Shown piece after piece: positions 3,453 through 21,011 of a stretch of 64,000 bases of DNA. The notes under the pieces were generated by a model. It was not told the DNA's origin. It saw nothing but the letters and a program-made list of their open reading frames with translations, and did not search any database. Source of the DNA: an uncultured Paracoccaceae bacterium. Its GTDB lineage: Bacteria; Pseudomonadota; Alphaproteobacteria; Rhodobacterales; Rhodobacteraceae. How positions within the stretch are numbered: position 1 is the first letter of the stretch; every line of letters starts with the position of its first letter. A program made the translations under genes and the position numbers. The stretch spans positions 237,928-301,927 of the forward strand of contig CANLEQ010000002.1 of NCBI GenBank assembly GCA_947489705.1. Direction: 5' to 3'.

Positions 3453-4193
3453 CTATCCCCGCCCGACGAACGGCATGGCGCTCGCCATCACGGTCATGAA
3501 CTGGACATTCGCGTCGAGCGGCAGGGACGCCATGTGCAGGACCGAACTCGCGACGTGGCTGGCATCCATGACCGGCTCGACCTTGCGGCTGCCATCGGCC
3601 TGCGGCACGCCCCTGGTCATCTTCTCGGCCATGTCGGTCAGCGCGTTGCCGATGTCGATCTGGCCGCAGGCGATCCCGAAGGGCCGCCCGTCGAGGCTCA
3701 CCGTGCGGGTCAGCCCCGTGACCGCGTGTTTCGACATCGTGTAGGCCGCCGATCCCGGGCGCGGCACATGCGCCGAGATCGAGCCGTTGTTGATGATGCG
3801 CCCGCCCTGGGGATCCTGCCGACGCATCAGACCGAAGGCCGCGCGCGCGCACAGGAACATGCCGGTCACGTTGGTGTCGATCAGCCTGCGGAAATCCTCC
3901 ACTGCGATCTCGTCGAGGGTGCCGTCGCCGATATTCATGCCGGCATTGTTGAAGAGCGCGTCGAGCCGGCCCCATTCCTGCGCGACCTTGACGAAGGTTT
4001 CGGTGACCGCACCCTCGTCGGTCACGTCGGTCGGCAGGATCAGCGTATCTGCGTCGTGACCTTCGGCCGTTTCGCGCAAGGCGTCCTCGCGACGGCCCAC
4101 CAGCGCCACGCGCCAGCCCGCATCGAGGAACGCGCGGGCGGTGGTGCGGCCGATGCCGCTGCTCGCGCCGGTGATCAGGATGGTCTGCGTCAT
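3453..4193 (-). CDS. SDR-family oxidoreductase
   Basis: This is a classical short-chain dehydrogenase of 246 residues. It has the N-terminal dinucleotide motif TGASSGIG (residues 8-15), an FNNAGMN motif, a catalytic serine in NNGSISAHV and the YTMSK (YxxxK) pair. The chosen ATG gives the standard N-terminus MTQTILITGASSGIG; a longer open frame upstream is not protein-like. It starts 10 bases from the stop of the IlvD/Edd gene and reads the same way, so it is probably the last gene of that unit. It probably oxidises or reduces a polyol or sugar-acid intermediate. The substrate and cofactor preference are not determined. Confidence 0.88.
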   Translation of the reverse strand: MTQTILITGASSGIGRTTARAFLDAGWRVALVGRREDALRETAEGHDADTLILPTDVTDEGAVTETFVKVAQEWGRLDALFNNAGMNIGDGTLDEIAVEDFRRLIDTNVTGMFLCARAAFGLMRRQDPQGGRIINNGSISAHVPRPGSAAYTMSKHAVTGLTRTVSLDGRPFGIACGQIDIGNALTDMAEKMTRGVPQADGSRKVEPVMDASHVASSVLHMASLPLDANVQFMTVMASAMPFVGRG

Positions 4194-4203
4194 GGAAATA
4201 TCC

Positions 4204-5985
4204 TCAATGGTTGTCGCGCGGCAGGGATTGGCGGATGCGTTGATAGGCGGTCGCGAGTTCGAGGCAGCCGCCCTGCGCGAGCTGGCCGACATTGGTGCGG
4301 TAGATCTCTTCCCAGGGCGTCTGGTGGACGAGCTCGGGCGCTTCCCATGCGGCCTTGCGCTCCTCCCATTCCTCGTCCGGAACGAGCGCGTCCAGCGTGC
4401 CCGCATTGAGGTCGAGCTTCACCCGGTCCCCCGTCCTGAGATAGGCGAGGCCGCCCCCGACCACCGATTCGGGCGAGGCGTTGAGGATCGACGGGCTTTC
4501 CGACGTTCCCGATTGCCGCCCGTCGCCGACCGTGGGCAGGTGCGTGACGCCCCCGCGCAGCACGGAGGCCGGCGGCATCATGTTGACCACCTCGGCCGAG
4601 CCGGGATAGCCCACGCAGCCCACGCCGCGGATGAAGAGGATCGTGGAATCGTCGATCTCCAGCGACACGTCGTTGATCCGGTCGTGGTAATCCTCAGGCC
4701 CCTCGAAGACGACGGCCCGCGCCTCGTAGGTGCCCTCGCTGCCCGGCGTGTCGATGTAGCGGCGGCGGAAATCCTCGGAGATCACGCTGGTCTTCATCAG
4801 CGCGGAGTCGAAGAGGTTCCCCGAAAGGACGACGAATCCGGCATTGCTCCTGAGCGGTGCGTCGTAGGGGGCGATGACCTCGTGGTCGACGCTGTCGCGC
4901 CCGGCGATGTTCTCGCCCATCGTCTTGCCGGTGGCGGTCATGCAGGTCTCGTGGATCCGCCCCGCCTTGGCGAGTTCGGCCATGATCGCCGGCACGCCGC
5001 CCGCGCGATGGAACGATTCGCCGAGATAGGCGCCGGCCGGCTGCATGTTGAGCAGGAGCGGCACATCGTAGCCCACCTTCTGCCAGTCCGTCACGTCGAG
5101 CTCGACGCCCGCATGGCGCGCGACGGCCTGCAGATGCGGCGGCGCGTTGGTCGAGCCGCCGATGGCCGAATTCACCACGATCGCGTTCTCGAACGCTTCG
5201 CGGGTCAGGATGTCCGACGGCTTGAGATCCTCGTAGGCCATCTCGACGATGCGCCGGCCGGTGAGGTATGCCATCTCCATCCGCTCGCGGAACGGCGCGG
5301 GGATGGCCGAACATCCCGTCAGGCACATGCCCAGCGCCTCGGCCATCGCGTTCATCGTGCTGGCCGTGCCCATTGTGTTGCAATGGCCGAGCGACGGCGC
5401 GGAGGCGCAGGCACGGTCCATGAACTCGTCGTAGTCGATCTTGCCCTCGGCCAGCAGGCGGCGCGCTTCCCAGATCACGCCCCCCGAGCCCACGCGCTTG
5501 CCCTTGAACCAACCATCGAGCATCGGTCCGCCGTTGAGCGTGATGGCCGGGATGTCCATCGTCGCCGCCCCCATCAGCATGGCGGGGGTGGTCTTGTCGC
5601 AGCCGGTCGTCAGCACCACCGCGTCGATCGGATAGCCGTGCAGCACCTCGACCAGCCCCAGATAGGTGAGGTTCCGGTCGAGCGCCGCCGTCGGCCGCTT
5701 GCCGGTCTCCTGGATCGGGTGGACGGGAAACTCCATCGGGATGCCGCCCGCGTCGCGGATGCCGCTCTTGATCCGGTCCATGAGAAAGACGTGGATCTTG
5801 TTGCAGGGCGCGATGTCGCTGCCGGTCTGGGCGATGCCGATGATCGGCTTGCCGCCCTGCAGCTCCGCCCGGCTGTATTCCTGATTCTGGTAACGCTCGA
5901 TATAAAGGGCGGTCATGCCCGGGTTGTTGGGATTGTCGAACCATTCCTGGGAACGGAACCGCTTGTTCGCTCGGGTGTCGGCCAT
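4204..5985 (-). CDS. IlvD/Edd-family sugar-acid dehydratase (xylonate/arabonate type)
   Basis: This Fe-S dehydratase of 593 residues converts an aldonic acid to its 2-keto-3-deoxy acid. From memory it closely resembles D-xylonate and L-arabonate dehydratases such as Caulobacter XylD: SQEWFDNPNNPGMTALY near the N-terminus, GIAQTGSDIAPCN (a likely cluster cysteine), TTGCDKTTPAMLMGA, LGHCNTMGTASTMNA and GDGRQSGTSESPSILN. These features and the sugar-acid neighbourhood argue against the dihydroxy-acid dehydratase of branched-chain amino acid synthesis. A TGGTATACCA palindrome 58 bases upstream, inside the end of the phyH gene, probably controls it. An SDR follows 10 bases downstream. The exact substrate is unknown. 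Confidence 0.9.
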   Translation of the reverse strand: MADTRANKRFRSQEWFDNPNNPGMTALYIERYQNQEYSRAELQGGKPIIGIAQTGSDIAPCNKIHVFLMDRIKSGIRDAGGIPMEFPVHPIQETGKRPTAALDRNLTYLGLVEVLHGYPIDAVVLTTGCDKTTPAMLMGAATMDIPAITLNGGPMLDGWFKGKRVGSGGVIWEARRLLAEGKIDYDEFMDRACASAPSLGHCNTMGTASTMNAMAEALGMCLTGCSAIPAPFRERMEMAYLTGRRIVEMAYEDLKPSDILTREAFENAIVVNSAIGGSTNAPPHLQAVARHAGVELDVTDWQKVGYDVPLLLNMQPAGAYLGESFHRAGGVPAIMAELAKAGRIHETCMTATGKTMGENIAGRDSVDHEVIAPYDAPLRSNAGFVVLSGNLFDSALMKTSVISEDFRRRYIDTPGSEGTYEARAVVFEGPEDYHDRINDVSLEIDDSTILFIRGVGCVGYPGSAEVVNMMPPASVLRGGVTHLPTVGDGRQSGTSESPSILNASPESVVGGGLAYLRTGDRVKLDLNAGTLDALVPDEEWEERKAAWEAPELVHQTPWEEIYRTNVGQLAQGGCLELATAYQRIRQSLPRDNH

Positions 5986-6036
5986 GTCGTCTTTTCCTCC
6001 TCGGGCGGCCTTTAGCCGCCGATCGGGGGAGAGTGT

Positions 6037-6990
6037 CTAATCTGGTATACCAAATTGCAAGAGGAATGATCTTGCCTCTTCGAGACGCGCGCCGTCTCCC
6101 CCGGAGAACGCCTGTTCGGGCTCGTCGGGACGCTGCGTCCCGAAGGGCGCGCCGGCGTCGGATGCCGCCGGCAACGGCATCGTGACGGGCACCTTCTCCA
6201 TCCGCGGGTCGAAGCAGGGTTCGCCCGTGACCATCCGATCCCGCACCGCGTCCCGGCAAAAGCCTGGGTATCGGGCGTCGGTATAAGGATTGCCGCCGTT
6301 AAGCGGCCAGGCATCGGCCGCCGAACATGTGAAGGACAGGGTCACACGGGCCCGGTCCGACATGTTCGCGCCCACGCCGTGAAGAAGACGCGCGTGGTGG
6401 ACGGTCATGCAGCCCGCCCGCCCTGTCAGCGGCACCGCCCGGCCCGCCTCGAAGAGCGGGTCGTCGGGATCGATGGCGCCCCGGACGATGCCGTTGGCGT
6501 GGTGCTCGAGGACCGGCCCGCGATGGCTGCCGGGAATGACCATCAAGGGGCCATTCTCGGAATCCACGTCCTCGAGCATCAGGCCGACCGTCAGAAGGTC
6601 GTCGTTCGTATGCGGATGGAAGGCCCAGTCCTGACGCCATTCGATCGCCGGGCCGCCCTTCGGGGCCTTGATCTCGAGGTTGGACGCCACCAGCGCCACG
6701 TCGGGCCCCAGAAGGTCGCGGAGCACCTCCGTGATACCGGACATGCGCAGCGCCTCGTCGAAACAGACATGGATCTTCTCGGGAACCGCGATACGCGTGA
6801 GCCGCGGCTCACGCGGCGAATGGCCGCGATCGAGTCCATAGACCACGTCGCTCCGTGTCACTTCCCGCGAGGCGTCGATCAGGACGCGGGCCACGCCTTG
6901 CATGTACGACAGATGATCCTTGCATACGACATCGTTGACCAGCAGATATCCATCGAGCGCGTAGGTCCGTTTCTGTGCGTCGCTCAGCAT
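6037..6990 (-). CDS. Phytanoyl-CoA dioxygenase (PhyH) family protein, iron-ligand His replaced by Arg
   Basis: The fold is that of Fe(II)/2-oxoglutarate hydroxylases (317 residues). The core runs from WRQDWAFHPHTNDD through GPLMVIPGSHRG to the distal HHARLLHG. In the family the first two iron ligands form an HxD motif, usually HQD, followed by this same sequence. Here it reads RQD, with a CGT codon, so one ligand is missing and oxygenase activity is doubtful. The ATG at 6990 is preceded by AGGAGAAGGAT and fits the family start; longer open frames upstream are not protein-like. The last codons contain operator A. It may be an impaired hydroxylase or a binding protein for a sugar acid. Confidence 0.82.
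   Translation of the reverse strand: MLSDAQKRTYALDGYLLVNDVVCKDHLSYMQGVARVLIDASREVTRSDVVYGLDRGHSPREPRLTRIAVPEKIHVCFDEALRMSGITEVLRDLLGPDVALVASNLEIKAPKGGPAIEWRQDWAFHPHTNDDLLTVGLMLEDVDSENGPLMVIPGSHRGPVLEHHANGIVRGAIDPDDPLFEAGRAVPLTGRAGCMTVHHARLLHGVGANMSDRARVTLSFTCSAADAWPLNGGNPYTDARYPGFCRDAVRDRMVTGEPCFDPRMEKVPVTMPLPAASDAGAPFGTQRPDEPEQAFSGGDGARLEEARSFLLQFGIPD
6043..6052. promoter_or_regulatory. Operator A: TGGTATACCA upstream of the dehydratase
   Basis: This perfect ten-base palindrome lies 58 bases upstream of the IlvD/Edd start. Its flanks (AATCTGGTATACCAAA) are identical over 16 bases to site C at 13626. GntR/FCD regulators commonly bind such short palindromes, and one is encoded at 12908. The site lies inside the last codons of phyH, where it encodes Phe-Gly-Ile-Pro. 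Confidence 0.75.
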
Positions 6991-7054
6991 ATCCTTCTCC
7001 TCCGTTTTCCGGCCATCTCTCTGTGTTTGGGCATGGTGGCGATTCAGTGGACGA

Positions 7055-7066
7055 TAGTTTATCAGA
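7055..7066. promoter_or_regulatory. Possible degenerate operator between phyH and the LysE gene
   Basis: TAGTTTATCA matches the TGGTATACCA operator at 7 of 10 positions, and the right flank (AGACTGCAA) resembles that of site A (AAATTGCAA). It lies between the divergent phyH and LysE/kdgK starts, where an operator would be expected if the whole island were one regulon. The match is weak. Confidence 0.3.
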
Positions 7067-7122
7067 CTGCAACTACCGCGAGAACGGAGGCCTTCGGTCT
7101 TGAGAAGCGACATTCTGTCCCA

Positions 7123-7722
7123 ATGCTGACCTTTGCGGCCGCCGTGTTCTTCCTGATCGTGACGCCCGGCCCCGGCGTCCTTTCGGCGGCGGGTGTGGGG
7201 TCGGGCTACGGGTTTCGCTCCGGATTCCGCTATCTCGCGGGGCTCTTCGTCGGCACGAACCTGGTCGCCGTCGCGGTGATCACGGGGCTTGGCGCGATCG
7301 TGCTGTCGGTGCCCGCGATCCGCTGGATCCTGATGGCCGCGTCGATCGCCTATCTTCTCTATCTGGCCCTCAGGATCGCCACGGCGGGCAGCAGGATCGC
7401 CTTCATCGAAAGCGCCAGCGCCCCCGGCATCGGCGCGGGCCTGCTGTTGCAGGCGATCAACCCCAAAGCCTATGCGGTCAACACCACGCTCTTCGCGGGC
7501 TTTCCCTACGCCCCCGAAAGCTATCCCTTCGAAGTGATCACCAAGCTGCTGATCGTCAACGCGATCTGGATCCCGATCCATCTGGCCTGGCTCTGGGCGG
7601 GGGCGTCGTTGCATCGCCTCGCGCTCGGCGAGAAGGCGCAGCGGCGCATCAACTACGCGATGGCGGCCTCCATGCTGGCGGTGGTCGCTCTGGCCCTGAT
7701 TTCCGGAATGAGACAGACATGA
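7123..7722 (+). CDS. LysE/RhtB-family exporter
   Basis: This small inner-membrane exporter has 199 residues and about six hydrophobic segments. It begins MLTFAAAVFFLIVTPGPG, and the early TPGPG motif is characteristic of LysE/RhtB amino-acid or metabolite exporters. The start at 7123 puts this motif in its usual place. The stop overlaps the kdgK start as ATGA, so the two are translationally coupled. In this setting it may vent an over-accumulating acid or amino-acid by-product, but the substrate is unknown. Confidence 0.85.
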   Translation: MLTFAAAVFFLIVTPGPGVLSAAGVGSGYGFRSGFRYLAGLFVGTNLVAVAVITGLGAIVLSVPAIRWILMAASIAYLLYLALRIATAGSRIAFIESASAPGIGAGLLLQAINPKAYAVNTTLFAGFPYAPESYPFEVITKLLIVNAIWIPIHLAWLWAGASLHRLALGEKAQRRINYAMAASMLAVVALALISGMRQT

Positions 7723-8633
7723 CAACGGACCGCAGCTTTCTTTCGATCGGCGAATGCATGGTGGAGCTGGCCCAGACGGGGCCCGACACCTACCGGCGGG
7801 GATTTGCCGGCGATACGTTCAACACGGCCTGGTACGCGCGCCGCCTGCTGCCCCCCGAATGGCGCGTGGCCTACGGAAGCTGCATCGGCACCGATACCGT
7901 CTCGGACGAGATGGCGGCCTTCATCGACGCCGAGGGAATTGACACGAGCACCCTGCGCCGCGTGCCCGAACGCAGCGTCGGCCTCTACATGATCTCGACC
8001 GAGAAGGGCGAGCGCAGCTTCTCCTACTGGCGCAGCCAATCGGCCGCGCGCCTGCTGGCCGACGACACGGACTGGCTCGACGGTTTGCTCAAGGATCGCG
8101 ACGTCATCCACCTCTCGGGCATCACCCTCGCCATCCTGCCGCAGGCGCATCGCAGCACCCTTTGCGCCGCGCTGCGCCGCGCCCGCGAGGAGGGCGCCTT
8201 CGTCTCCTTCGACACCAACCTGCGCCCGCGCCTCTGGGAGAGCGAGGAGGCCATGCGCGACGGGCTCACGATGGGGGCCGGCTCCGCGGATCTGGTCCTG
8301 CCGAGCTTCGACGAGGAAACGGATCTCTTCGGCGATCCGACCCCCGCCGATACCGTCGCGCGCTATCGCGACGGCGGCGCGCGCATGGTCGTGGTCAAGA
8401 ACGGCGGGGACGACGTCACGCTCTGGTCCGAGGGCGGCGTCGACACCACGCTCACCCCCGTCAGGGTGGAGGATCCGGTCGACACCACCGCCGCCGGCGA
8501 CAGTTTCGCCGCCGCCACTCTGGCGGGTCTCGGGCGCGGCGCCGCCCTCGACGCTGCGGTTCGCGACGCGATGGAGCTCTCGGCCAAGGTCATCCGGACG
8601 CCCGGCGCGCTGGCCCCGTCGATCTTCGAATAG
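7719..8633 (+). CDS. kdgK: PfkB-family sugar kinase, probable 2-keto-3-deoxygluconate kinase
   Basis: This cytoplasmic ribokinase-type kinase (304 residues) is predicted to phosphorylate 2-keto-3-deoxygluconate to KDPG for Entner-Doudoroff cleavage. Its N-terminus, FLSIGECMVEL, and the GFAGDTFNTAWY substrate-side motif are typical of KdgK. The C-terminal PfkB signature is DTTAAGDSFAAATL, with the catalytic Asp in AAGD (an unusual AA where most have GAGD). No KDPG aldolase gene is visible in the window, so the product must be processed elsewhere. It overlaps the LysE-type gene by four bases and precedes the operator B promoter region. Confidence 0.88.
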   Translation: MTTDRSFLSIGECMVELAQTGPDTYRRGFAGDTFNTAWYARRLLPPEWRVAYGSCIGTDTVSDEMAAFIDAEGIDTSTLRRVPERSVGLYMISTEKGERSFSYWRSQSAARLLADDTDWLDGLLKDRDVIHLSGITLAILPQAHRSTLCAALRRAREEGAFVSFDTNLRPRLWESEEAMRDGLTMGAGSADLVLPSFDEETDLFGDPTPADTVARYRDGGARMVVVKNGGDDVTLWSEGGVDTTLTPVRVEDPVDTTAAGDSFAAATLAGLGRGAALDAAVRDAMELSAKVIRTPGALAPSIFE

Positions 8634-8701
8634 CCGGACATGCCCGTCCGCGGCCCCGATCGCCCGGCGATCCCCCTTGAAAGTTCCCGCGCGGCGGGGT
8701 T

Positions 8702-8711
8702 TGGTATACCA
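8702..8711. promoter_or_regulatory. Operator B: TGGTATACCA upstream of the LtnD-UxaA-OtnI unit
   Basis: A perfect copy that extends to TTTGGTATACCAAA (8700-8713). It lies 17 bases in front of the dehydrogenase ATG at 8729, overlapping the expected promoter or early 5' leader. Binding there would repress the three genes 8729-11969. It is the longest palindrome of the set. Confidence 0.75.
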
Positions 8712-8728
8712 AATCGGGAGGAACATTC

Positions 8729-9685: not shown

Positions 9686-11176
9686 ATGCAAACCGTGAGA
9701 TTGTCGCCCGAAGACAATGTCGTCACCGCCATCGTCCCGCTCGAAGTGGGACAGGAGGGTGCCACGACCCTCGTCCCGCGCGGTCACAAGATGGCGACGG
9801 AAGACATCGCGCGCGGCGCGCCCGTGCGCAAATACGCCCAGATCATCGGCTATGCCCACGAGGACATCCCCAAGGGCGCGCATGTCCACGAGCACAACCT
9901 CGACTTTCGCGCCGTCGATCAGGAGTACGAGTTCTCGACCAACCTGCGCCCCGTGGCCCCCGCCGAAAAGCAGGACACGTTCATGGGCTACCGTAGGCCG
10001 ACGGGCAAGGTCGGCACGCGCAACCACATCGCGATCATCACCTCGGTCAATTGCTCGGCCACCGCCGCGCACAAGATCGCCGAGCATTTCACCGAAGAGA
10101 AGCTCGCCCAGTATCCCAATGTCGACGGCGTGACCGCCTTCGTGCACGGCACCGGCTGCGGGATGGGCGGCGACGGCACCGGCTTCGAGGCACTGCAGCG
10201 CGTGATGTGGGGCTTTGCCCGCAATCCCAATGTCGGCGGCGTGCTGATGGCGGGGCTCGGCTGCGAGATCATGCAGATCGACTGGCTGATCGAATCCTAC
10301 GGCCTGACGCCGGGGCCGCTCTTTCAGGCGATGAACATCCAAGATGTCGGCGGCCTCGCCAAATGCGTGGAACTCGGCATCAAGAAGGTCGAGGCGATGC
10401 TGCCCCTCGTCAACGCGACCGAGCGCGAGGAATGCCCGGCCTCCGAGCTGATGGTGGCGCTGCAATGCGGTGGATCGGACGCCTGGTCCGGGGTCACCGC
10501 GAACCCCGCCGTGGGCCATGCCTGCGACCTGCTGGTCGCGCAGGGCGGCACCGGCGTGCTGGCCGAAACGCCCGAGATCTACGGCGCCGAGCACCTTCTG
10601 ACCGCGCGGGCCGTCAACCGGGAGGTGGGCGACAAGCTCGTCGGGCTGATCCATTGGTGGGAGGATTACACCGCCCGCGCCAAGGGCTCGATGGACAACA
10701 ACCCCTCGCCGGGCAACAAGAGGGGCGGCCTCACCACCATCCTCGAGAAATCACTGGGCGCCGCCGCCAAGGGCGGGACGACGCCGCTGACCGGTGTCTT
10801 CAAATATGCCGAGCCAGTGACGACGAAGGGCTTCGTCTTCATGGACAGCCCCGGCTACGATCCGGCCAGCGTCACGGGACAGATCGCGTCGGGCTGCAAC
10901 CTCGTCTGCTTCACCACCGGTCGCGGGTCCGCCGCGGGCTACAAGCCGTCGCCGTCGATGAAGGTCGCGACCAACACCGAGATGTTCAACCGCATGGTCG
11001 ACGACATGGACGTGAACGCGGGCACCATCCTCACCGGGGGCAAATCGGTCGAGGAAGTCGGGCGCGAGATCTACGAGATGTGGCTGCGCATGGCCTCGGG
11101 CGAGAAGAGCAAGTCCGAGTTGCAGGGCCTCGGCGATTACGAGTTCGTGCCCTGGCAGATCGGCTGCACCATGTAA
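9686..11176 (+). CDS. UxaA-family dehydratase (altronate/galactarate dehydratase type)
   Basis: This 496-residue full-length member of the UxaA family dehydrates hexonates such as D-altronate to 2-keto-3-deoxy acids. The N-terminal SAF-like domain covers roughly residues 1-95. The catalytic part carries NCSATAAHKIAEHF, GTGCGMGGDGTGF and MAGLGCEIMQ, with cysteines that in the family bind the metal. GGTTPLTGVFKYAEP and CFTTGRGSA mark the C-terminal half. A strong GGAGGGGAG site precedes the ATG. If it makes KDG, the kdgK gene on the same strand just upstream provides the next step. Substrate assignment is by family only. Confidence 0.88.
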   Translation: MQTVRLSPEDNVVTAIVPLEVGQEGATTLVPRGHKMATEDIARGAPVRKYAQIIGYAHEDIPKGAHVHEHNLDFRAVDQEYEFSTNLRPVAPAEKQDTFMGYRRPTGKVGTRNHIAIITSVNCSATAAHKIAEHFTEEKLAQYPNVDGVTAFVHGTGCGMGGDGTGFEALQRVMWGFARNPNVGGVLMAGLGCEIMQIDWLIESYGLTPGPLFQAMNIQDVGGLAKCVELGIKKVEAMLPLVNATEREECPASELMVALQCGGSDAWSGVTANPAVGHACDLLVAQGGTGVLAETPEIYGAEHLLTARAVNREVGDKLVGLIHWWEDYTARAKGSMDNNPSPGNKRGGLTTILEKSLGAAAKGGTTPLTGVFKYAEPVTTKGFVFMDSPGYDPASVTGQIASGCNLVCFTTGRGSAAGYKPSPSMKVATNTEMFNRMVDDMDVNAGTILTGGKSVEEVGREIYEMWLRMASGEKSKSELQGLGDYEFVPWQIGCTM

Positions 11177-11210: not shown

Positions 11211-11969
11211 ATGAGATTTTCGGCCAATCTGGGGTTCCTGTGGGCCGATCGCCCCCTCCCCGACGCCATACACGCGGCGAAGGCCGCCGGGTTCGACGCG
11301 GTGGAGCTGCACTGGCCCTACGATCACGACGCGGGCGCGGTGAAGGCCGCGCTCGACGAGACGGGCCTGCCCTGCCTCGGACTCAATACCGTGCGCGGGG
11401 ATGTGTCGGCGGGCGAGAACGGCCTGTCGGCGCTGCCCGGCCGCGAAGGCGACGCACGCGCGGCGATCGAGCAGGCGCTCGATTACGCGGTCGCGATCGA
11501 CGCGGCGAACGTCCACGTCATGGCGGGCAAGGCCGAGGGCCCCGAGGCCGAGACGGCGTTCATCGCCAACCTGCAATTCGCCTGCGCGCGCGCGGGCCAG
11601 CGCGGCATCCTGATCGAGCCGCTCAACCATTACGACGCGCCGGGCTATTTCCTGAACACCGCCACGCAGGCGGCCGAGATCGTCGAGAAGGTCGGCGCTC
11701 CGGATCTTAAGATCATGTTCGACTGCTATCACATCCAGCTGATGCAGGGCGACCTCAGCCACCGGCTGCGCACGCTTCTGCCGGTGATCGGCCATATCCA
11801 GATCGCCTCCGTGCCGGATCGTGGCACGCCCGATCACGGCGAACTGAACTATCCCTACATCTACGACCTGCTGGAGGAGCTCGGCTGGCAGACGCCGCTC
11901 GGCGCCGAGTACAAGGTCGCGACGCCGACCGACGACACGCTCGACTGGCTGCGCGCCGCGCGCGGCTGA
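11211..11969 (+). CDS. Hydroxypyruvate-isomerase-like TIM-barrel protein (Hyi/OtnI type)
   Basis: This 252-residue protein of the xylose-isomerase-like fold is related to hydroxypyruvate isomerase and 2-oxo-tetronate isomerase (OtnI). Expected metal/active-site acids are seen in LIEPLNHYDAPG, MFDCYHIQLMQGDL, HIQIASVPDRGTPDHGE and GAEYKVATPTDD. The AAAGGAGG ribosome site is perfect. It closes the operon opened by the LtnD-like gene and ends just before a palindrome and a strong terminator. It probably interconverts a 2-keto and an aldehyde acid produced by the dehydrogenase. Confidence 0.87.
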   Translation: MRFSANLGFLWADRPLPDAIHAAKAAGFDAVELHWPYDHDAGAVKAALDETGLPCLGLNTVRGDVSAGENGLSALPGREGDARAAIEQALDYAVAIDAANVHVMAGKAEGPEAETAFIANLQFACARAGQRGILIEPLNHYDAPGYFLNTATQAAEIVEKVGAPDLKIMFDCYHIQLMQGDLSHRLRTLLPVIGHIQIASVPDRGTPDHGELNYPYIYDLLEELGWQTPLGAEYKVATPTDDTLDWLRAARG

Positions 11970-11971
11970 AC

Positions 11972-13558: not shown

Positions 13559-13625
13559 TCTTCTCCATCCCGGTTTCCGACGCACCTGCGACCGGAAACG
13601 CCATGCCCTACGGTAATTCGCAATC

Positions 13626-13635
13626 TGGTATACCA
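13626..13635. promoter_or_regulatory. Operator C: TGGTATACCA in the gntR-TRAP intergenic region
   Basis: A perfect palindrome 67 bases upstream of the GntR start, in the divergent 13559-13762 region. Its context AATCTGGTATACCAAA is identical to site A. It is well placed for autoregulation of gntR. Confidence 0.75.
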
Positions 13636-13680
13636 AAAGAGGTTGATTGTCGATTGCCCGTTCACTAGCGTCCTCGGCGA

Positions 13681-13690
13681 TGGTATACCA
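13681..13690. promoter_or_regulatory. Operator D: TGGTATACCA upstream of the TRAP genes
   Basis: A perfect palindrome extended to ATGGTATACCAT (13680-13691), centred 55 bases from operator C. This is about five helical turns, so dimers on both sites would lie on nearly the same face. It is 72 bases upstream of the dctP-type ATG. Confidence 0.75.
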
Positions 13691-13762
13691 TCTTCACGGC
13701 GCGGGAGGGAATACGCGCCAGGCAATCGAGACGGCGTCAACGCCGCCCAGGGAGGACGATAT

Positions 13763-14797
13763 ATGAATATGACCAAGATGATGCTGACCGCCGCCGCCGG
13801 TGCCGTGATCGCCGGATCGGCAGCGGCGCAGGAGACGACGCTCCGCATCCAGACCCATTACGCGGCGGAGACCCCCAGCGGTCAGCTGATCGGTCAATGG
13901 GTTGACGATGTCGAAACGATGTCGGGCGGGGACATAGCGATCGAGATGTTCTATTCCTCCGCCGTCGTCGGCACGACCGAGACCTTCGATGCCGCGATCA
14001 ACGGCATCCTCGATTGCGACGCGACGGGCGGCGCCTATCAGACCGGCAAGAACCCCGCCTTCCAGTTCGTCGGCGACATCATGGGCGGCTACGACACTCC
14101 CTGGCAGCAATATAGCTGGCTCTATTACGGCGGTGGCCTCGACGCGGCTCAGGAGCTTTACAACGCCAACGGCATGCAGCTCATCGGCTGGTCCATCTAT
14201 GGTCAGGAATCGCTGTCCTCCTCCACGCCGCTCGAAGGCCCCGACGACCTTCAGGGCTGGAAGTTCCGCTCTCCCCCGGGCATGGAAACCGAGATCTTCG
14301 AGCAGCTCGGCTCCTCTCCCATCGTGATGGATTTCACCGAGATCTTCACCGCGCTCGAGACCGGCATCATCGACGGGACGGATGCCAGCGGCCTCGCCAA
14401 CAACGTGGGCCTCGGGATCTACGACGTCGTCCAGCACGCGACCTTCCCCGGCTTCCACTCGATGCCGTCGGACCACCTGGCCTGCAACCAGCAGATCTGG
14501 GAGGGGCTGACCGATCAGGAGCGCCGCATCATCGAGGTGGCCTGGCAGAAGCTGTCGTTCCAGATCGCCCTGACCTTCGAGAAGCAGAACGCCGAGGCCG
14601 CGGCGGAGCTTCAGGAACAGGGCGTGACGCTCTACGACTGGTCCCCGGAGGACCGCGCCGTGTTCCGCGAGGCCGCACAGGTCACCTGGGAGGATTGGGG
14701 CAGCCGCTCTCCCGAGGCCGCGGCGCTTCTGGAAAGCCACAAGGCCTATCTGACCGATCTGGGGCTGATTTCGAGCGACGACAGCTCCGAGAACTGA
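13763..14797 (+). CDS. TRAP transporter substrate-binding protein (DctP family)
   Basis: This periplasmic solute-binding protein has 344 residues. A signal peptide spans about residues 1-24 (LTAAAGAVIAGSAAAQE, cleavage after AAA/AQ). DctP features include GWKFRSPPGMETEIFEQLG, with the arginine that usually binds the ligand carboxylate, and TALETGIIDGTDASGLANN. The strong GGGAGGAC site and operators C and D mark a regulated, highly expressed first gene. A hairpin separates it from the membrane subunits. The cargo is probably the acid degraded by the surrounding enzymes. Confidence 0.93.
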   Translation: MNMTKMMLTAAAGAVIAGSAAAQETTLRIQTHYAAETPSGQLIGQWVDDVETMSGGDIAIEMFYSSAVVGTTETFDAAINGILDCDATGGAYQTGKNPAFQFVGDIMGGYDTPWQQYSWLYYGGGLDAAQELYNANGMQLIGWSIYGQESLSSSTPLEGPDDLQGWKFRSPPGMETEIFEQLGSSPIVMDFTEIFTALETGIIDGTDASGLANNVGLGIYDVVQHATFPGFHSMPSDHLACNQQIWEGLTDQERRIIEVAWQKLSFQIALTFEKQNAEAAAELQEQGVTLYDWSPEDRAVFREAAQVTWEDWGSRSPEAAALLESHKAYLTDLGLISSDDSSEN

Positions 14798-14858: not shown

Positions 14859-14902
14859 CGATGCGCATCCGTGATCTAGCATCAGACCAAGGGGGTTTCG
14901 CG

Positions 14903-15709
14903 ATGCATGGAGATAGTGTCTGGCTCGGGCGGCTGCGGCGCCCCATCTTTTACCTGATGGCCGCGTTCATCGCCGCGACGCTGCTGCTCTGGGCCTGGCT
15001 GGTCGTCAATCGCCTGATCGACCCCGAAGCCTACGGAATGTACGAGATGATCCGCCCGACGGGTCGGCCCCTCGTCCAGCTTACCCTGTTCTGCTTGTGC
15101 GGCGCGACGCTCTTCTCGGCACTCTACCTGTCGGATTTCCAGGGATCGATCGAGCCGCAGCAGAGGGGGATCTTCGATATCCTCTCGCTGGTGCTGAGCC
15201 GCATCGCGATGATGATGATCGCGCTCGTCGTGCTCGTCATGTTCTACGAGGTGGTCAGCCGGTACGTCTTTCTCGCCCCGACCCTCTGGGCCAACGAATT
15301 GTCGCTCTGGATCGCGGCCTTCATCTTCCTGCTGTCGGGGCAATACGCGATGCAGCAGCGATGCCACATCCGCATTCCCGTCATCTACGACCGGATGCCG
15401 TTCTGGATGCGCAAGGTGTCCGACAGCCTTTCGGTCCTGATGATCTGCCTCTTCGTGCTGGCGCTGGTCTGGGGCGGCTACAACGACGCCGAGACGCGGT
15501 TCCTGCGGATGGAGACCTTCGGCACGGCGTGGGATCCGCCCATTCCCGGCATCATCAAGCCGTTCCTCCTCCTCGCGATGGTCCTCGTCGCGCTGCAATC
15601 GGTCTCGAACCTGATCGCCGACTGGAACAAGGAGAACGCCTACGAAGACCCCGAAGGCGTCGACGACACCGAGATCGAGAACATCAAGCGCACGCTGGAG
15701 GAGAAATAA
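14903..15709 (+). CDS. TRAP transporter small permease (DctQ family), extended N-terminus
   Basis: This small membrane subunit has 268 residues, longer than the usual 160-200. It has two extra hydrophobic segments (about residues 16-40 and 60-82) before the standard four-helix DctQ domain, which carries FYEVVSRYVFLAPTLWANEL and a QYAMQQRCHIRI motif. The start at 14903 is preferred because the upstream ATG at 14861 would lie directly against the hairpin. It ends directly at the DctM start. Its partner is the large permease at 15710. Confidence 0.88.
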   Translation: MHGDSVWLGRLRRPIFYLMAAFIAATLLLWAWLVVNRLIDPEAYGMYEMIRPTGRPLVQLTLFCLCGATLFSALYLSDFQGSIEPQQRGIFDILSLVLSRIAMMMIALVVLVMFYEVVSRYVFLAPTLWANELSLWIAAFIFLLSGQYAMQQRCHIRIPVIYDRMPFWMRKVSDSLSVLMICLFVLALVWGGYNDAETRFLRMETFGTAWDPPIPGIIKPFLLLAMVLVALQSVSNLIADWNKENAYEDPEGVDDTEIENIKRTLEEK

Positions 15710-17305
15710 ATGGTCGATGTCGGCACGCTCAGCCTGATCATCCTGCTGGCGATGTTCGCCCTGCTGGCGATCGGCATGCCCCTCGGTTTCGCGTCCGCCT
15801 TCCTCGCGGTGGTGACGCTGGTCCTGCGCTTCGATCCCTCGATCCTGTTCTCCGATTTCGGGCGCGGACCGCTCTCGGTGCTGGCGCAGGCGGTCTACCG
15901 ACAGATGACGAACTACGTCCTCATCTCGATACCGCTCTTCATCTTCATGGCGGCGCTCCTCGAACGCTGCGGGATCGCGCGGGACATGTATTCCTCGCTC
16001 AACGTCTGGCTCAGCCGGACCCGCGGCGGCATCGCCATCGTCACCTCGATCATGGCCGTCATCATGGCGGCGATGTCCGGCATCATCGGCGGCGAGGTCG
16101 TGCTTCTGGGCCTCATCGCCCTGCCGCAGATGCTGCGGCTTGGCTACAACCAGAACCTCGCCATCGGCACGATCTGCGCGAGCGGTTCGCTCGGCACGAT
16201 GATCCCGCCCTCGATCGTCCTGATCTTCTACGGGCTGGTGACCGAGACGTCGATCAAGTCGCTCTTCACGGCGGCCTTCCTGCCGGGCTTCATGCTCGCC
16301 TCGTTCTTCCTCATCTACATCGTGGTGCGCACGCGCATCACGCCGTCGCTCGCCCCCCTCCCCGAGCCGGAACCCGGCGATCCCGAAGGCGGCGAGAAGG
16401 GGCTCATGTTCCTGGGCTTCCTCGCCCGGATCACCTGCTGGATCGCGGCGGCGTTGCTGCTGCGGGCGCTCTTCTTCACCGTGACGGGGGCCAACACGAT
16501 CCGCGAGGGCGTCGATCCGATCCTGCTCGGCATGGTCAGCGACATCCCCTATCTTGTGGGCGCGTTCCTGATCGCGCTGGCGGTGATCTTCGTCGTCGTC
16601 GGGCGCGAGCGGACCTCGCAGGGCTGGCAGATGGGCAAGGGCCTCGTCGCGCCGATCGTGGTGATCGGGGTTGTCCTGGGCTCGATCTACGGCGGCATCA
16701 CCGGCATCACCGAGGCCGCCGGGATGGGTGCGATCGCGGTCTTCGTGATCGGCCTGCTACGGCGCGAGATGACGTTCCTGATCCTGTGGGACAGCCTGAT
16801 GCGCACGCTGAAATCCACCGGCACGATCATCTGGGTGACGATCGGCGCGGCGGCGCTCGCCGCGGCCTACACGCTGACCGGCGGGCCGACCTATGTGGCC
16901 AACCTCATCGTGGGCGCCGAGGTGCCGACGATGGGCGTGATCCTGATCATGATGTTCGTCTTCCTCGTCATGGGGATGTTCATGGACTGGATCGGCATCG
17001 TGCTGCTGATCATGCCGGTCTTCCTGCCGATCGTGACGCGCCTGCCGGTCGAGGAGCTGGGCTTCTTCGCCTCGGTGGATCCCCGGTTCGTCCCGATCTG
17101 GTTCGGCGTACTCTTCTGCATGAACATGCAGGTGAGCTTCCTGTCGCCCCCTTTTGGCCCGGCCGCGTTCTATCTCAAGTCGGTGGCCCCGCCCGAGATC
17201 GAGCTGACCGATATCTTCAAGGGGTTCCTGCCCTTTATCGCGCTGCAGCTTCTGGCCCTGTGCGTCATGCTCGCCTATCCGCCCATCGTGACGGTTTTCC
17301 TCTAA
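15710..17305 (+). CDS. TRAP transporter large permease (DctM family)
   Basis: This large inner-membrane subunit has 531 residues and about 12-14 hydrophobic segments. It couples Na+ entry to solute uptake. Family motifs are FIFMAALLERCGIARDMY, ICASGSLGTMIPPSIVLI and the C-terminal MNMQVSFLSPPFGPAAFY. At 531 residues it is longer than the common 425-440, because of an extra membrane block around residues 215-320. It follows the DctQ stop without a gap. Confidence 0.93.
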   Translation: MVDVGTLSLIILLAMFALLAIGMPLGFASAFLAVVTLVLRFDPSILFSDFGRGPLSVLAQAVYRQMTNYVLISIPLFIFMAALLERCGIARDMYSSLNVWLSRTRGGIAIVTSIMAVIMAAMSGIIGGEVVLLGLIALPQMLRLGYNQNLAIGTICASGSLGTMIPPSIVLIFYGLVTETSIKSLFTAAFLPGFMLASFFLIYIVVRTRITPSLAPLPEPEPGDPEGGEKGLMFLGFLARITCWIAAALLLRALFFTVTGANTIREGVDPILLGMVSDIPYLVGAFLIALAVIFVVVGRERTSQGWQMGKGLVAPIVVIGVVLGSIYGGITGITEAAGMGAIAVFVIGLLRREMTFLILWDSLMRTLKSTGTIIWVTIGAAALAAAYTLTGGPTYVANLIVGAEVPTMGVILIMMFVFLVMGMFMDWIGIVLLIMPVFLPIVTRLPVEELGFFASVDPRFVPIWFGVLFCMNMQVSFLSPPFGPAAFYLKSVAPPEIELTDIFKGFLPFIALQLLALCVMLAYPPIVTVFL

Positions 17306-17316
17306 CCCAAGGCGCT

Positions 17317-17344
17317 GGCCGCCCCGTTTCGCGACGGGGCGGCC
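17317..17344 (+). terminator. Hairpin after the TRAP genes
   Basis: GGCCGCCCCGT (17317-17327) pairs with ACGGGGCGGCC (17334-17344) around TTCGCG. It is a strong 11-base-pair stem 11 bases after the DctM stop, but without a T-run, so it may be a terminator or an RNA-stabilising structure. Confidence 0.65.
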
Positions 17345-17514
17345 GGACAAAGGAGACGATCCCGTGCCGCCCTTCCCTCCGGAAGATCAAGGTGCCGCAT
17401 CCTCGGCAGGCGGCCAACGCGTCCGTCATGGGACGTACCGACACTCGGCGGCCGCCCATCCCCACCCATCGTCGGCATCCCGACGATCCCGCTTGCGCAT
17501 GAAAGGAACACGAC

Positions 17515-18402
17515 ATGAGTGATGAAAAGATCGGCTTCATCGGCCTCGGCCTGATGGGACGGGCCATGGTGGAATGCCTCCAGAAGGCCGGCCATCCGGT
17601 CACGGTGCTCGGCAACCGCGACCGGAGCGGCATAGAAGAGGCCGTCTCGCGCGGCGGAACGGAAGCCGGGACCGCCCGCGAACTCGCTGAGAGCTGCGAT
17701 ATCGTCATGCTCTGCATGGGGACGTCCGAGCACGTCGAATCGCGCGTCTACGGCGATGACGGCATCCTCGCGGGCGCCAGGGACGGCCAGGTCGTGATCG
17801 ATTTCGGCACGTCCCTGCCCACCTCGACGATCGAGATCGGCAAGGCCCTTGCGGAAAAGGGCGCCGCATATCTCGACGCGCCGCTCGGCCGGACGCCGGC
17901 CCATGCGGTCGACGGCAAGCTCAACATCATGTGCGCGGGCGACCAGGCGGCCTACGACCGGGTGAAACCTGTCCTCGACACTCTGGGCGAAAACGTTTTT
18001 CATCTGGGCGAGCTCGGCAACGGACACAAGATCAAGCTGATGAACAACTTCTTCGCCATGACGACCGCGATGGCCATGTCCGAGGTGTTCGCGACCGCCG
18101 ACAAGGTCGGCATCGAGCGTCAGAAGGTCTATGACGTCATGTCGGCGGGCCCGTTGAAATCGGGGATGATGGACTTCATCAAGAACTACGCGACCGACGG
18201 CAAGATCGACCTCGCCTTCTCGGTCGAGAACGGGGCGAAGGATGTCGGATATTACCGCCAGATGGCGGAGAATTTCGGGATCGAGAGCCGCATGTCGGGC
18301 TGTGCCTCGGACACGCTGCGCGCCGCCTGCGACAGCGGCGATGGCGGGCTGAACATACCGGAAATGGTTGACTGGATGACCAAGAACCTTGGAGCTAAGT
18401 GA
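17515..18402 (+). CDS. NAD(P)-dependent oxidoreductase, 3-hydroxyisobutyrate-dehydrogenase family (second copy)
   Basis: This 295-residue relative of the protein at 8729 is clearly a different subtype. It has the Rossmann motif GFIGLGLMGRAM near residue 7, DAPLGRTPAHAVDGKLN at the substrate site (where most members have GG rather than GR), and the catalytic lysine in KIKLMNNFFAMT. It may act on a tartronate-semialdehyde-like or other beta-hydroxy acid. The stop TGA is next to the ATG of the following SDR, so they are coupled. A GAAAGGAAC site lies 5 bases upstream. Confidence 0.86.
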   Translation: MSDEKIGFIGLGLMGRAMVECLQKAGHPVTVLGNRDRSGIEEAVSRGGTEAGTARELAESCDIVMLCMGTSEHVESRVYGDDGILAGARDGQVVIDFGTSLPTSTIEIGKALAEKGAAYLDAPLGRTPAHAVDGKLNIMCAGDQAAYDRVKPVLDTLGENVFHLGELGNGHKIKLMNNFFAMTTAMAMSEVFATADKVGIERQKVYDVMSAGPLKSGMMDFIKNYATDGKIDLAFSVENGAKDVGYYRQMAENFGIESRMSGCASDTLRAACDSGDGGLNIPEMVDWMTKNLGAK

Positions 18403-19128
18403 ATGAGACTGGACGGAAAACGCGCCTTCGTAACCGCGGCGGGCCAGGGGATCGGCCGCGCCATCGCGCAAGGCATGGCGGCCGAAGGGGCGGAGGTCGT
18501 GGCGACCGACCTCAAGGGCGATCTGCTGTCGGATATCGGTACGGCCGAACATTTCGCGCTCGACGTCACGGACAAGGACGCGCTGCAATCGGCCGTCCGC
18601 GACGCCAAGGCGGATATCCTCGTCAATTGCGCGGGCTTCGTGCATCACGGGACGATCGGCGATTGCACCGAGGACGAGTGGGAATTTGCCCATAATCTCA
18701 ACGTGCGCTCGCAATTCCATTCGATGCAGGCGGCGATCCCCGGCATGGTCGAGCGCGGCCGCGGCTCGATCATCAACATCTCGTCGGTGGCCAGCTCGAT
18801 CATCGCGGCGCCCAACCGCTTCGTCTACGCCGCGACCAAGGCGGCGGTGATCGCCATGACGAAATCCGTGGCGCTCGACTACGTGACCACGGGCGTGCGG
18901 TGCAACTGCATCTGCCCCGGCACGGTCGACAGCCCCTCGCTCCACGATCGCTGGACCGCGAGCGGCGATTACGAGGCCGCCCAGAAGGCGTTCATCGCCC
19001 GCCAGCCCATGGGCCGCGTCGGAACCCCCGAGGAGATCGCCAAGCTCGCGATCTATCTCGGCTCCGACGAGAGCAGCTTCACCACCGGGCACGCGCATGT
19101 CATCGACGGTGGGTGGTCGGTGGGCTAA
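18403..19128 (+). CDS. SDR-family dehydrogenase, 2-keto-3-deoxy-L-fuconate-dehydrogenase / DHRS6-like
   Basis: This 241-residue NAD-dependent SDR has TAAGQGIG at the N-terminus, NCAGFVHHGTIGDCTEDEW, the catalytic INISSVASSI serine and the YAATKAAV (YxxxK) pair, then VRCNCICPGTVDSPSLHDRW. From memory these stretches are almost those of DHRS6/BDH2 and of bacterial FucDH. FucDH oxidises 2-keto-3-deoxy-L-fuconate to the 2,4-diketo acid, the substrate type of the FAH hydrolase at 12028. It is therefore probably the oxidative step of the non-phosphorylated branch. Confidence 0.9.
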   Translation: MRLDGKRAFVTAAGQGIGRAIAQGMAAEGAEVVATDLKGDLLSDIGTAEHFALDVTDKDALQSAVRDAKADILVNCAGFVHHGTIGDCTEDEWEFAHNLNVRSQFHSMQAAIPGMVERGRGSIINISSVASSIIAAPNRFVYAATKAAVIAMTKSVALDYVTTGVRCNCICPGTVDSPSLHDRWTASGDYEAAQKAFIARQPMGRVGTPEEIAKLAIYLGSDESSFTTGHAHVIDGGWSVG

Positions 19129-19139
19129 GGCCCGTACCG

Positions 19140-20066: not shown

Positions 20067-20069
20067 GCC

Positions 20070-21011
20070 TCAGTTCACCCGCGTCAGAAGCTCCCGCGCG
20101 TCGTGAAACGCGGCGATGTTGTCGCGCTGAAGCTGGCCCATCGCCGCACGCGTGGCATGGGTGCCCGACCCCTGATGCGGTTGCAGAACCACGTTGTCGA
20201 GCCGGGCGAAACGCGGATCGGCAGCGGGCTCGTCCTCGAAGACGTCGAGACCCGCACCCGCCAGCTCACCGGCCTCCAGCGCGTCGAGAAGCGCGCGCTC
20301 GTCCACCGTGGAGCCGCGGGAGATGTTGATCACCACGCCGTCGCGGCCCAGGGCACGGATCATCTCGGCGGAGACCATCTTCTCGGTCTCGGGCCCGCCC
20401 ACGAGGGAGACGACGAGGATATCGACCGCCTCGGCCAGCGCGATGGGATCGTCGTGATAGGTCCATCCCTCGGGCGTGTCCTTCGGCGAGCGCGACCAGT
20501 AATGCAGCTCCATCCTGAAGGCCGCGAGACGGTCGGCGATGTCACGGCCGATCCGGCCGAGGCCCAGGATCCCCACGCGGCTGCCGCTCATCTTGCGGTT
20601 CAGCGGAAAGTCCTCGCCATCGGCCCACGCGCCCGAGCGGACATGCGCGTCGCCCTGCAGCATCCGACGCCCCTGAATCAGCAGCATCGCCACGGCCAGA
20701 TCCGCCACGTCGTCGTTGAGCACGTCGGGCGTGTTCGTGACCGCGATCTCGCGCGCGGCGGCGGCATCCACATCGATCGCGTCGTAGCCCACACCGAAAT
20801 TCGCGATGAGCCCGAGCGCGGGGAAGGCGTCCATCTGATCGCCGCCGAACGCCGCATGGCCCTTGTAGGCGATGGCGGTGATCGCGGCGCGCTCCGCTTC
20901 GGGAAGGGCCAGCGCCTCGTCGAGCGTGGCCGCCCGAAGCGCGTCGAGATCGGCGCCCAGCGCCGTCTCGTCGATCTCGGTGTAGGTTCCGATGGCGAGG
21001 GTCGCGGTCAT
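20070..21011 (-). CDS. D-isomer-specific 2-hydroxyacid dehydrogenase
   Basis: This 313-residue cytoplasmic dehydrogenase reduces a 2-keto acid such as glyoxylate, hydroxypyruvate or 2-ketogluconate. GILGLGRIGRDIADRL forms the nucleotide-binding loop, and the following YWSRSP suggests NADP preference. The catalytic triad is visible as Arg in NISRGSTVDE, Glu in DVFEDEPAAD and His in LQPHQGSGTHAT. The ATG at 21011 has an AGGAGCTTTGCC leader. It converges with the DMT gene three bases away. It could recycle a 2-keto by-product of the island. Confidence 0.9.
   Translation of the reverse strand: MTATLAIGTYTEIDETALGADLDALRAATLDEALALPEAERAAITAIAYKGHAAFGGDQMDAFPALGLIANFGVGYDAIDVDAAAAREIAVTNTPDVLNDDVADLAVAMLLIQGRRMLQGDAHVRSGAWADGEDFPLNRKMSGSRVGILGLGRIGRDIADRLAAFRMELHYWSRSPKDTPEGWTYHDDPIALAEAVDILVVSLVGGPETEKMVSAEMIRALGRDGVVINISRGSTVDERALLDALEAGELAGAGLDVFEDEPAADPRFARLDNVVLQPHQGSGTHATRAAMGQLQRDNIAAFHDARELLTRVN

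Follow-up and report, generated by a model that had tools for sequence, protein, structure and literature searches.

The 64,000-nucleotide stretch of contig CANLEQ010000002.1 analyzed here (hereafter the window), from an uncultured Paracoccaceae bacterium, contains at window positions 3453-21011 an island of 17.6 kb and 17 protein genes, bordered by pheT (184-2580) on one side and by a PPOX-type flavoprotein gene (21088-21693) on the other. As enzyme families of three sugar-acid pathways lie together in it, the locus raises the question of whether its genes form one functional unit and which compounds they would serve. The comparisons described below indicate that the island is a real, conserved and probably co-regulated sugar-acid cluster assembled from known parts. 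The reading that we favour, with moderate confidence, is that a single FadR-type GntR regulator would, via a conserved palindrome, switch on as one regulon the genes predicted to take up and degrade several C4-C6 sugar acids.

The 4.34 Mb genome contains the palindrome core TGGTATACCA at six sites, of which the island accounts for four, and the reversed control pattern at one site. Under random placement, the binomial probability of finding at least four of the six sites in these 18.5 kb is about 5e-9. When up to two mismatches to TTGGTATACCAA were allowed, the window contained five sites where 0.13 would be expected; four of the five belong to the island. The four island sites, to which no strand is assigned, stand ahead of four gene groups:

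6042-6053, no strand: predicted operator CTGGTATACCAA, 56 bp upstream of IlvD, overlapping the 3' end of PhyH
8701-8712, no strand: predicted operator TTGGTATACCAA, 16 bp upstream of LtnD
13625-13636, no strand: predicted operator CTGGTATACCAA, on the GntR side of the divergent promoter region between GntR and DctP, a gene of the tripartite ATP-independent periplasmic (TRAP) transporter
13680-13691, no strand: predicted operator ATGGTATACCAT, on the TRAP side of the same region, 55 bp from its partner site

In the window, IlvD and the FAH-family hydrolase gene stand behind the same palindrome as LtnD and UxaA, and the TRAP operon stands behind one too. This arrangement argues for joint operation of these families as a unit and fits both the shared importer and the combination of a phosphorylated with a non-phosphorylated branch that had been suggested in the initial annotation. 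The island regulator, with a GntR DNA-binding domain and an FCD effector domain, fits the FadR subfamily, whose motifs are described in PMC4494728 as TKGT/ACMA boxes with 2-3 nt between GT and AC, the spacing of UxuR being 2 nt. The palindrome, TGGT-AT-ACCA, fits these boxes with the 2-nt spacing of UxuR, and on such sequence grounds we infer that the island GntR protein may bind the four sites. Among the papers listed in searches of the open-licence literature, none retrieved for the palindrome dealt by title with sugar-acid regulation in bacteria, and this gene combination did not appear, which does not in itself show that they are unpublished.

Conservation was evaluated in loci recovered by a protein search for UxaA relatives, from which the best 80 of 271 encoding stretches were kept. 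The loci were grouped by UxaA identity into group A (L009-L023, 77-83%), group B (L024-L042, 66-74%) and group C (L043-L088, more distant); the groups were set after the map had been seen, and palindromes were counted in all 80 loci. Group A showed 42 exact sites, distributed over 15/15 loci, against 0.13 expected and at most five for any of 319 other palindromes of equal AT content. No site was found in the 19 loci of group B, and the 46 loci of group C returned a single site, in L043, and among these 46 a GntR homologue reaching 45% identity was likewise confined to that locus; in the distant loci overall (groups B and C), the palindrome was present in 1/65. Thirteen other genomes of the genus were available, nine with a UxaA match at an E-value of 1e-150 and six at an identity of at least 81%. 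These six congeners and two family genomes, which are all those with a UxaA of at least 81% among the 60 genomes searched, contributed eight further loci. Together with group A they gave 70 sites in 23/23 close loci (UxaA at least 77%), site pairs lying 55-57 bp apart in 15 of the 23. The close loci include near-siblings (e.g., L014/L016/L017, L021/L022 and L155/L156) and are therefore not independent.

Three further sites were recorded outside the island. A near-match with two mismatches, TTGGCATACCAG, lies at window positions 27214-27225 within an open reading frame. An exact core on contig C1 (position 176424; locus L093, site 7424) stands about 25 bp upstream of a paralogous HIBADH-family dehydrogenase gene, possibly a further regulon member, with TRAP-like genes at least 3 kb beyond. 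Another exact core on contig C18 (position 51328; locus L094, site 7328) precedes by about 78 bp a TctC receptor gene that is followed by TctA; this tripartite tricarboxylate transporter may be under the same GntR regulator.

The genes of the island, with the family models or solved relatives by which they were assigned, are the following:

3453-4193, minus strand: SDR1, short-chain dehydrogenase (SDR) downstream of IlvD; Pfam adh_short, best solved relative 9x6i (unnamed SDR), 366 bits
4204-5985, minus strand: IlvD/Edd-type sugar-acid dehydratase; PRK13017 subfamily, 1000 bits against a cut-off of 684
6037-6990, minus strand: PhyH-like dioxygenase, its 3' end overlapped by a predicted operator; Pfam PhyH, 90 bits
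7123-7722, plus strand: LysE-type exporter, overlapping the KdgK start; Pfam LysE
7719-8633, plus strand: KdgK-like PfkB sugar kinase; NF052444, 239.9 bits, below the cut-off of 400; solved relative 4e69, 267 bits
8729-9628, plus strand: LtnD, L-threonate dehydrogenase family; NF043037, 410 bits against a cut-off of 350
9686-11176, plus strand: UxaA/GarD-superfamily dehydratase; Pfam, SAF and GD_AH domains
11211-11969, plus strand: OtnI-like 2-oxo-tetronate isomerase; NF043033, 270.7 bits, below the cut-off of 325
12028-12873, minus strand: fumarylacetoacetate hydrolase (FAH)-family hydrolase; Pfam FAA_hydrolase, best solved relative 8gsr, an L-2,4-diketo-3-deoxyrhamnonate hydrolase, 313 bits
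12908-13558, minus strand: GntR/FCD (FadR-subfamily) regulator; Pfam GntR and FCD
13763-14797, plus strand: TRAP solute-binding protein DctP; Pfam DctP
14861-15709, plus strand: TRAP small permease DctQ; Pfam DctQ
15710-17305, plus strand: TRAP large permease DctM; Pfam DctM
17515-18402, plus strand: HIBADH/GarR-like dehydrogenase; Pfam NAD_binding_2/11, tartronate semialdehyde reductase model 190 bits, cut-off 341
18403-19128, plus strand: SDR2, type-1 L-2-keto-3-deoxyfuconate 4-dehydrogenase-like; best solved relatives 8y4j/8xwk/8y11, 259 bits
19140-20066, plus strand: EamA/DMT-type transporter; Pfam EamA
20070-21011, minus strand: D-2-hydroxyacid dehydrogenase, glyoxylate/hydroxypyruvate-reductase-like; Pfam 2-Hacid_dh, NF009714 201 bits, cut-off 455

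The leftward groups are GntR with FAH, IlvD-SDR1, PhyH and, at the right end, the 2-hydroxyacid dehydrogenase gene; the rightward ones are DctP-DctQ-DctM with the GarR-like dehydrogenase, SDR2 and EamA, then LtnD-UxaA-OtnI, and LysE-KdgK. LtnD passed its curated cut-off, which OtnI, KdgK, the GarR-like enzyme and the 2-hydroxyacid dehydrogenase missed. All the genes named in the initial annotation were recovered by family models or Pfam, and its description of the island as a mixture of tetronate, hexuronate-type and non-phosphorylated Route III enzyme families was borne out. The PhyH-like, LysE, HIBADH/GarR-like and EamA genes and a second SDR, SDR2, had not been listed there. If SDR2 was meant by the "FucDH-like SDR" of that annotation, it is better described as type-1 L-2-keto-3-deoxyfuconate 4-dehydrogenase-like. 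ARAGORN also called a tRNA-Gly(ccc) at window positions 4275-4363 on the plus strand, inside the 3' part of the IlvD gene; as it falls within coding sequence, it is probably a false call.

The presence of these genes in relatives was counted with set identity thresholds after overlapping hits had been dropped, and since several contigs end early, an absence is not proof. In the 15 group A loci, a homologue of SDR1 (at least 55% identity) was found in 14, while IlvD, GntR, EamA, DctP, DctQ and DctM were found in 11 each, GarR in seven, FAH in six, SDR2 and LtnD in five each, OtnI in four, OtnK and OtnC in four, and KdgK in two; by position, KdgK lay no more than 20 kb from UxaA in 7/15 group A genomes. 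The island gene set recurs, largely linked, in relatives, and with four of the six TGGTATACCA sites of the genome lying in the island, the mixture goes beyond chance adjacency. It had been proposed that finding the modules separate and unlinked in related genomes would speak against a joint island. Distant relatives do have UxaA without most of the other island genes, and some close ones carry the tetronate run or the SDR-FAH pair elsewhere, but much of the set is linked in others. In the slot between UxaA and EamA (L009-L022, L157-L161), GFO/IDH/MocA, GarR-like and SDR2-like dehydrogenases alternate as if interchangeable. The 46 kb plasmid pS3C of Thalassococcus sp. S3 (NZ_CP022306.1, L097) carries a related cluster in which UxaC and UxuA are joined by one mannitol-dehydrogenase-family gene and three Gfo/Idh/MocA genes, so that such islands can be plasmid-borne.

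How the parts might work together can be outlined from their families. The TRAP system would import 2-hydroxy (sugar) acids. Two enzymes would dehydrate them to 2-keto-3-deoxy acids and converge on shared products: IlvD, for which a 2R,3S preference is expected (e.g., D-xylonate, D-gluconate), and UxaA, for which a 2S,3R preference is expected (e.g., D-altronate, D-arabinonate). As dehydration erases the stereochemistry at C2 and C3, D-xylonate and D-arabinonate yield the same 2-keto-3-deoxypentonate, and D-gluconate and D-altronate yield the same 2-keto-3-deoxygluconate (KDG). Products with a 6-hydroxyl would be phosphorylated by KdgK and split by a 2-keto-3-deoxy-6-phosphogluconate (KDPG) aldolase encoded elsewhere, and products suited to SDR2 would be oxidized at C4 and then hydrolyzed by FAH to pyruvate and glycolate, glycerate or lactate. 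L-threonate would be oxidized by LtnD, isomerized by OtnI and taken to the end of its route by OtnK and OtnC from another contig.

Regarding the dehydratases, the best solved relatives of IlvD were 5oyn (875 bits), which we take to be a xylonate dehydratase, and 7m3k, named galactonate dehydratase; from its family, IlvD would be expected to prefer 2R,3S acids. At an E-value of 1e-20, no gene of the genome other than UxaA itself matched UxaA; the genome also has two UxaC and two KDPG aldolase genes. Residues Cys 123, 158, 193 and 261 of UxaA were invariant in 95/95 aligned sequences, that of the window included, and the conserved iron-ligand cysteines are spaced 35-35-68 in the window UxaA versus 39-35-68 in the enzyme described in PMC6336799. 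A tree of 95 rows was built by a quick method, with the E. coli row on a very long branch and with D-idonate and fucose-type anchors labelled from gene context. The window UxaA fell in a 38-row clade (Shimodaira-Hasegawa-like approximate likelihood ratio test, SH-aLRT, 99), apart from the Paracoccus denitrificans D-idonate anchor and from the four fucose-type anchors, three of which grouped together while the fourth (L101) fell elsewhere. A role of UxaA as a D-arabinonate/D-idonate enzyme was considered and, given this separation from the P. denitrificans anchor, is not claimed here. Five of the 38 clade rows have UxaB and UxaC nearby, four of them with UxuA too, and these hexuronate neighbours point by context to D-altronate as the UxaA substrate. 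The UxaA-superfamily enzymes described in PMC6336799 and PMC10079672 act on the 2S,3R acids D-arabinonate, D-altronate, L-fuconate and D-threonate.

Two fates were considered for the 2-keto-3-deoxy acids. The KdgK score fell short of its equivalog cut-off, and the KdgK of one relative scored 261 bits. The best solved relatives of SDR2 presumably represent the published L-2-keto-3-deoxyfuconate (L-KDF) dehydrogenase. When aligned with them, SDR2 was seen to keep the R-T-R-R ligand pattern and the Trp described in PMC11199699; the human relative 2ag5 carries the same residues, which thus mark the family and not one substrate. The bacterial type-1 enzyme described in that paper oxidizes L-KDF, L-2-keto-3-deoxygalactonate (L-KDGal), D-2-keto-3-deoxypentonate (D-KDP) and, weakly, D-KDG (PMC11199699). 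In FAH, an H-x-x-E motif is visible by eye, and a His/Glu pair is named in PMC6336799. According to the same report, a UxaA-superfamily dehydratase, an SDR of the SDR2 type and an FAH-family hydrolase from Herbaspirillum run Route III in vitro, its working in vivo being left open by the authors (PMC6336799). Genome-wide searches returned SDR2-like matches in 14/15 and FAH-like matches in 15/15 close genomes. KdgK was also considered as a strict substitute for SDR2 and FAH, as L021 and L022 have KdgK and neither SDR2 nor FAH in the locus; this idea was dropped on account of the genome-wide SDR2 and FAH matches.

Among the tetronate genes, the initial annotation had noted that OtnK and OtnC were missing, which might be taken as a mark of different chemistry. 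Both are in fact absent from the island, where the four L-threonate genes do not form one cluster, but both are encoded on contig C8 of the same genome (145337-147246, L089), as the only pair above cut-off in the genome (OtnK 561 versus 350 bits, OtnC 276 versus 250). Since the island provides LtnD, the sole genome match above the cut-off of 350 bits, and an OtnI-like protein, the missing genes are missing locally only, and the L-threonate route is probably complete in this genome, split over two loci. The low score of OtnI looks clade-wide, because five OtnI homologues clustered with OtnK/OtnC in relatives scored alike (260-291 bits against 325). A different chemistry was not supported either, as seven related loci keep the pair between LtnD and UxaA and thus have all four L-threonate genes in one cluster. 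Four of them (L011, L012, L013 and L018) show the order LtnD-OtnK-OtnC-UxaA-OtnI, and the other three, which belong to three of the six congeners with this UxaA (L155, L156 and L158), show the co-directional run LysE-KdgK-DenD-LtnD-OtnK-OtnC-UxaA-OtnI. The L158 copies of LtnD, OtnK, OtnC and DenD (the last as a partial frame) passed their cut-offs, and that of OtnI did not.

Other congeneric arrangements were more dispersed. The locus with the closest UxaA (94%; L154, genome G022) has the layout of the window, without DenD, OtnK and OtnC at this place; in L157 and L159, UxaA lies behind DctM with the tetronate run elsewhere in the genome; in one of these two genomes, G024 (L167), the run lies about 20 kb from UxaA, with palindromes. 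OtnK was present in 9/9 genomes compared. Genome G022 also has an OtnK-OtnC pair 88% identical to that of C8, with neither LtnD nor OtnI in the surrounding 20 kb, and another pair that is 70% identical. The C8 genes were considered as relocated island genes and rejected as such, as the C8 OtnK is 46-47% identical to the island copies of the congeners and 88% identical to the unlinked G022 copy; it looks like a different lineage from the island copies. The simplest reading, short of proof, is that DenD, OtnK and OtnC were lost from the run of the window. The C8 pair lies close to where the contig ends, next to the apparent beginning of a transposase gene, presumably of the IS256 type. Elsewhere in the genome, two kinases near the 3-oxo-isoapionate kinase OiaK (L090:8596-9945 and L091:8833-10263; 522 and 518 bits, cut-off 700) hint at further use of branched sugar acids. 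Finally, as read from the gene maps, among 17 LtnD genes of at least 50% identity, the window one included, nine had a palindrome about 100 bp or less from the start, six were placed behind a palindrome at the head of the run, and two (L113 and L166) had neither, so that the tetronate kit is not always within this regulon.

The importer is present as a full set of DctP, DctQ and DctM in the island. The best solved relative of DctP was 4pe3, followed by the lactate-binding TTHA0766 (2zzv, 7e9y), the ketoacid-binding 7ug8 and 2hzk, titled as a sorbitol/mannitol-type TRAP protein. All of them are remote; they do not fix the TRAP ligand, and a ligand other than a sugar acid, which the initial annotation had named as a refuting result, stays a live alternative.

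Compared with known systems, the island resembles each of them in part. With the L-threonate/D-erythronate pathway it shares an LtnD above cut-off and a nearby OtnI-like gene, the full set with DenD occurring in three congeners, whereas the OtnK and OtnC of the window genome lie on another contig and a UxaA dehydratase stands between LtnD and OtnI. Route III of Herbaspirillum huttiense, as described in PMC6336799, involves the same three protein families, and SDR2 keeps the type-1 ligand pattern; in contrast, no aldo/keto reductase sugar dehydrogenase was found among the called island genes, the window UxaA lies in a clade separate from the placed anchors, the importer is a TRAP system, and tetronate genes share the palindrome. 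The hexuronate system UxaCBA-KdgK-Eda under ExuR/UxuR has in common a UxaA-type dehydratase, a KdgK-like kinase and a GntR/FCD regulator beside a motif with UxuR spacing. It differs in that UxaC, UxaB and UxuA are absent among the called island genes, with UxaC and KDPG aldolase encoded elsewhere, and in that the island adds the tetronate and Route III families. The D-idonate dehydratase cluster of P. denitrificans (L-glucose pathway, the gene being identified by context) is likewise a Rhodobacterales sugar-acid cluster with a UxaA-superfamily dehydratase; that enzyme, however, is 53% identical to the window UxaA and in another clade, and the cluster has 2-keto-3-deoxygalactonate kinase and aldolase instead.

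Several observations weigh against a single regulon served by broad enzymes. In the window, neither KdgK nor the 2-hydroxyacid dehydrogenase gene has an exact site to itself. The 10 kb fetched around the C8 OtnK-OtnC pair, which reach the contig end 0.8 kb past OtnC, showed neither LtnD nor OtnI nor the palindrome, and genome G026 (L166) has a complete tetronate run about 265 kb from UxaA without the palindrome. FAH and SDR2 were found in 6/15 and 5/15 of the close loci as fetched, some of whose contigs end early. In 11/15 close genomes, an SDR and an FAH gene lie side by side away from the fetched locus (on a different contig in nine, at a distance of 180 kb in one and, in the genome of L018, about 3 kb past the TRAP genes), so the tie of Route III to this regulon is not a firm one. 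Where a ligand is named, the nearest solved relatives of DctP are binding proteins for lactate or keto acids and not for aldonates. The separation of UxaA from all placed anchors means that its substrate is not fixed by the tree. As to breadth, the one well-studied UxaA relative is described as favouring D-arabinonate over D-altronate about 6,700-fold (PMC6336799), and the L-KDF dehydrogenase as 105-fold worse on D-KDG than on L-KDF (PMC11199699). The idea of opposite stereochemical preferences is weak for IlvD, because a Sulfolobus IlvD is described as accepting both 2R,3S and 2S,3R acids (PMC10079672). A bolder form of the favoured reading, an aldonate scavenger blind to chain length under one GntR switch, would sort C4-C6 acids by C2/C3 stereochemistry, with IlvD and LtnD taking 2R,3S acids and a new-subfamily UxaA taking 2S,3R acids including D-threonate; the shared products would be divided between KdgK and SDR2/FAH, unphosphorylated KDG going to pyruvate and glycerate. 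We regard it as unlikely, the more so since a D-arabinonate dehydratase has been reported as strict.

A different explanation, possible though doubtful in our judgement, is the scavenging of hexuronates and tetronates, with UxaA acting as a conventional D-altronate dehydratase that supplies KdgK and KDPG aldolase, LtnD and OtnI serving L-threonate, and IlvD, SDR2 and FAH forming a separate aldonate side route that shares the regulator by chance. The five related clusters with UxaB and UxaC near UxaA, four also with UxuA, agree with it, as do the single UxaA beside two UxaC genes in the genome and the occurrence of FAH-IlvD-SDR2 in one row in some relatives, e.g., L027, L031, L039 and L097. Yet UxaC, UxaB and UxuA were unmatched in the 15 closest loci as fetched (the extended L106 has a 36% UxaB-like match), KdgK scored below its curated cut-off, and the window IlvD and FAH genes share the palindrome of LtnD/UxaA. 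It would be quite unlikely, instead, that UxaA is a natural D-threonate (2S,3R) dehydratase completing the tetronate set, in which DenD would take D-erythronate and LtnD L-threonate. UxaA does stand between OtnC and OtnI in seven loci (L011, L012, L013, L018, L155, L156 and L158), and UxaA-superfamily D-arabinonate dehydratases act on D-threonate in vitro, although the turnover is described as low (PMC10079672). Moreover, in 14/23 close loci the nearest mapped upstream gene of UxaA is a co-directional DctM with no flanking tetronate gene, and the related clade carries hexuronate genes instead.

The shared palindrome and the adjoining importer would also suit one linear pathway for a single sugar acid, with all enzymes needed and a tetronate as intermediate. 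We consider this very unlikely, as the gene content varies in relatives (GFO, GarR and SDR2 alternate, and tetronate genes may be elsewhere) in a way that a strict linear route would not tolerate, and to our knowledge no set of reactions links these enzymes to a C4 product, which also counts against it. A chance or selfish gathering of independent catabolic modules without joint control, which the distant relatives keeping UxaA without most other genes might suggest, is scarcely credible against a palindrome found in 23/23 close and 0/19 intermediate loci and a gene order conserved in congeners.

The favoured reading of one GntR-controlled regulon rests on parts that are known; the points that we regard as new are the palindrome common to 23 loci, the union of all three kits in a single run in three congeners and the scattering of the tetronate genes, and the joint wiring of the parts looks new. 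A puzzling gene mixture thereby becomes a defined and testable regulon with a specific predicted operator recurring across Rhodobacterales. The splitting of the tetronate route, seen both in the window genome and in G022, the congener whose UxaA is closest, would represent a clean case of a complete pathway with dispersed genes. If true, the proposed regulon would assign substrates to a UxaA clade without a characterized member among the placed anchors, and would clarify the use that these bacteria make of sugar acids differing in length and stereochemistry.

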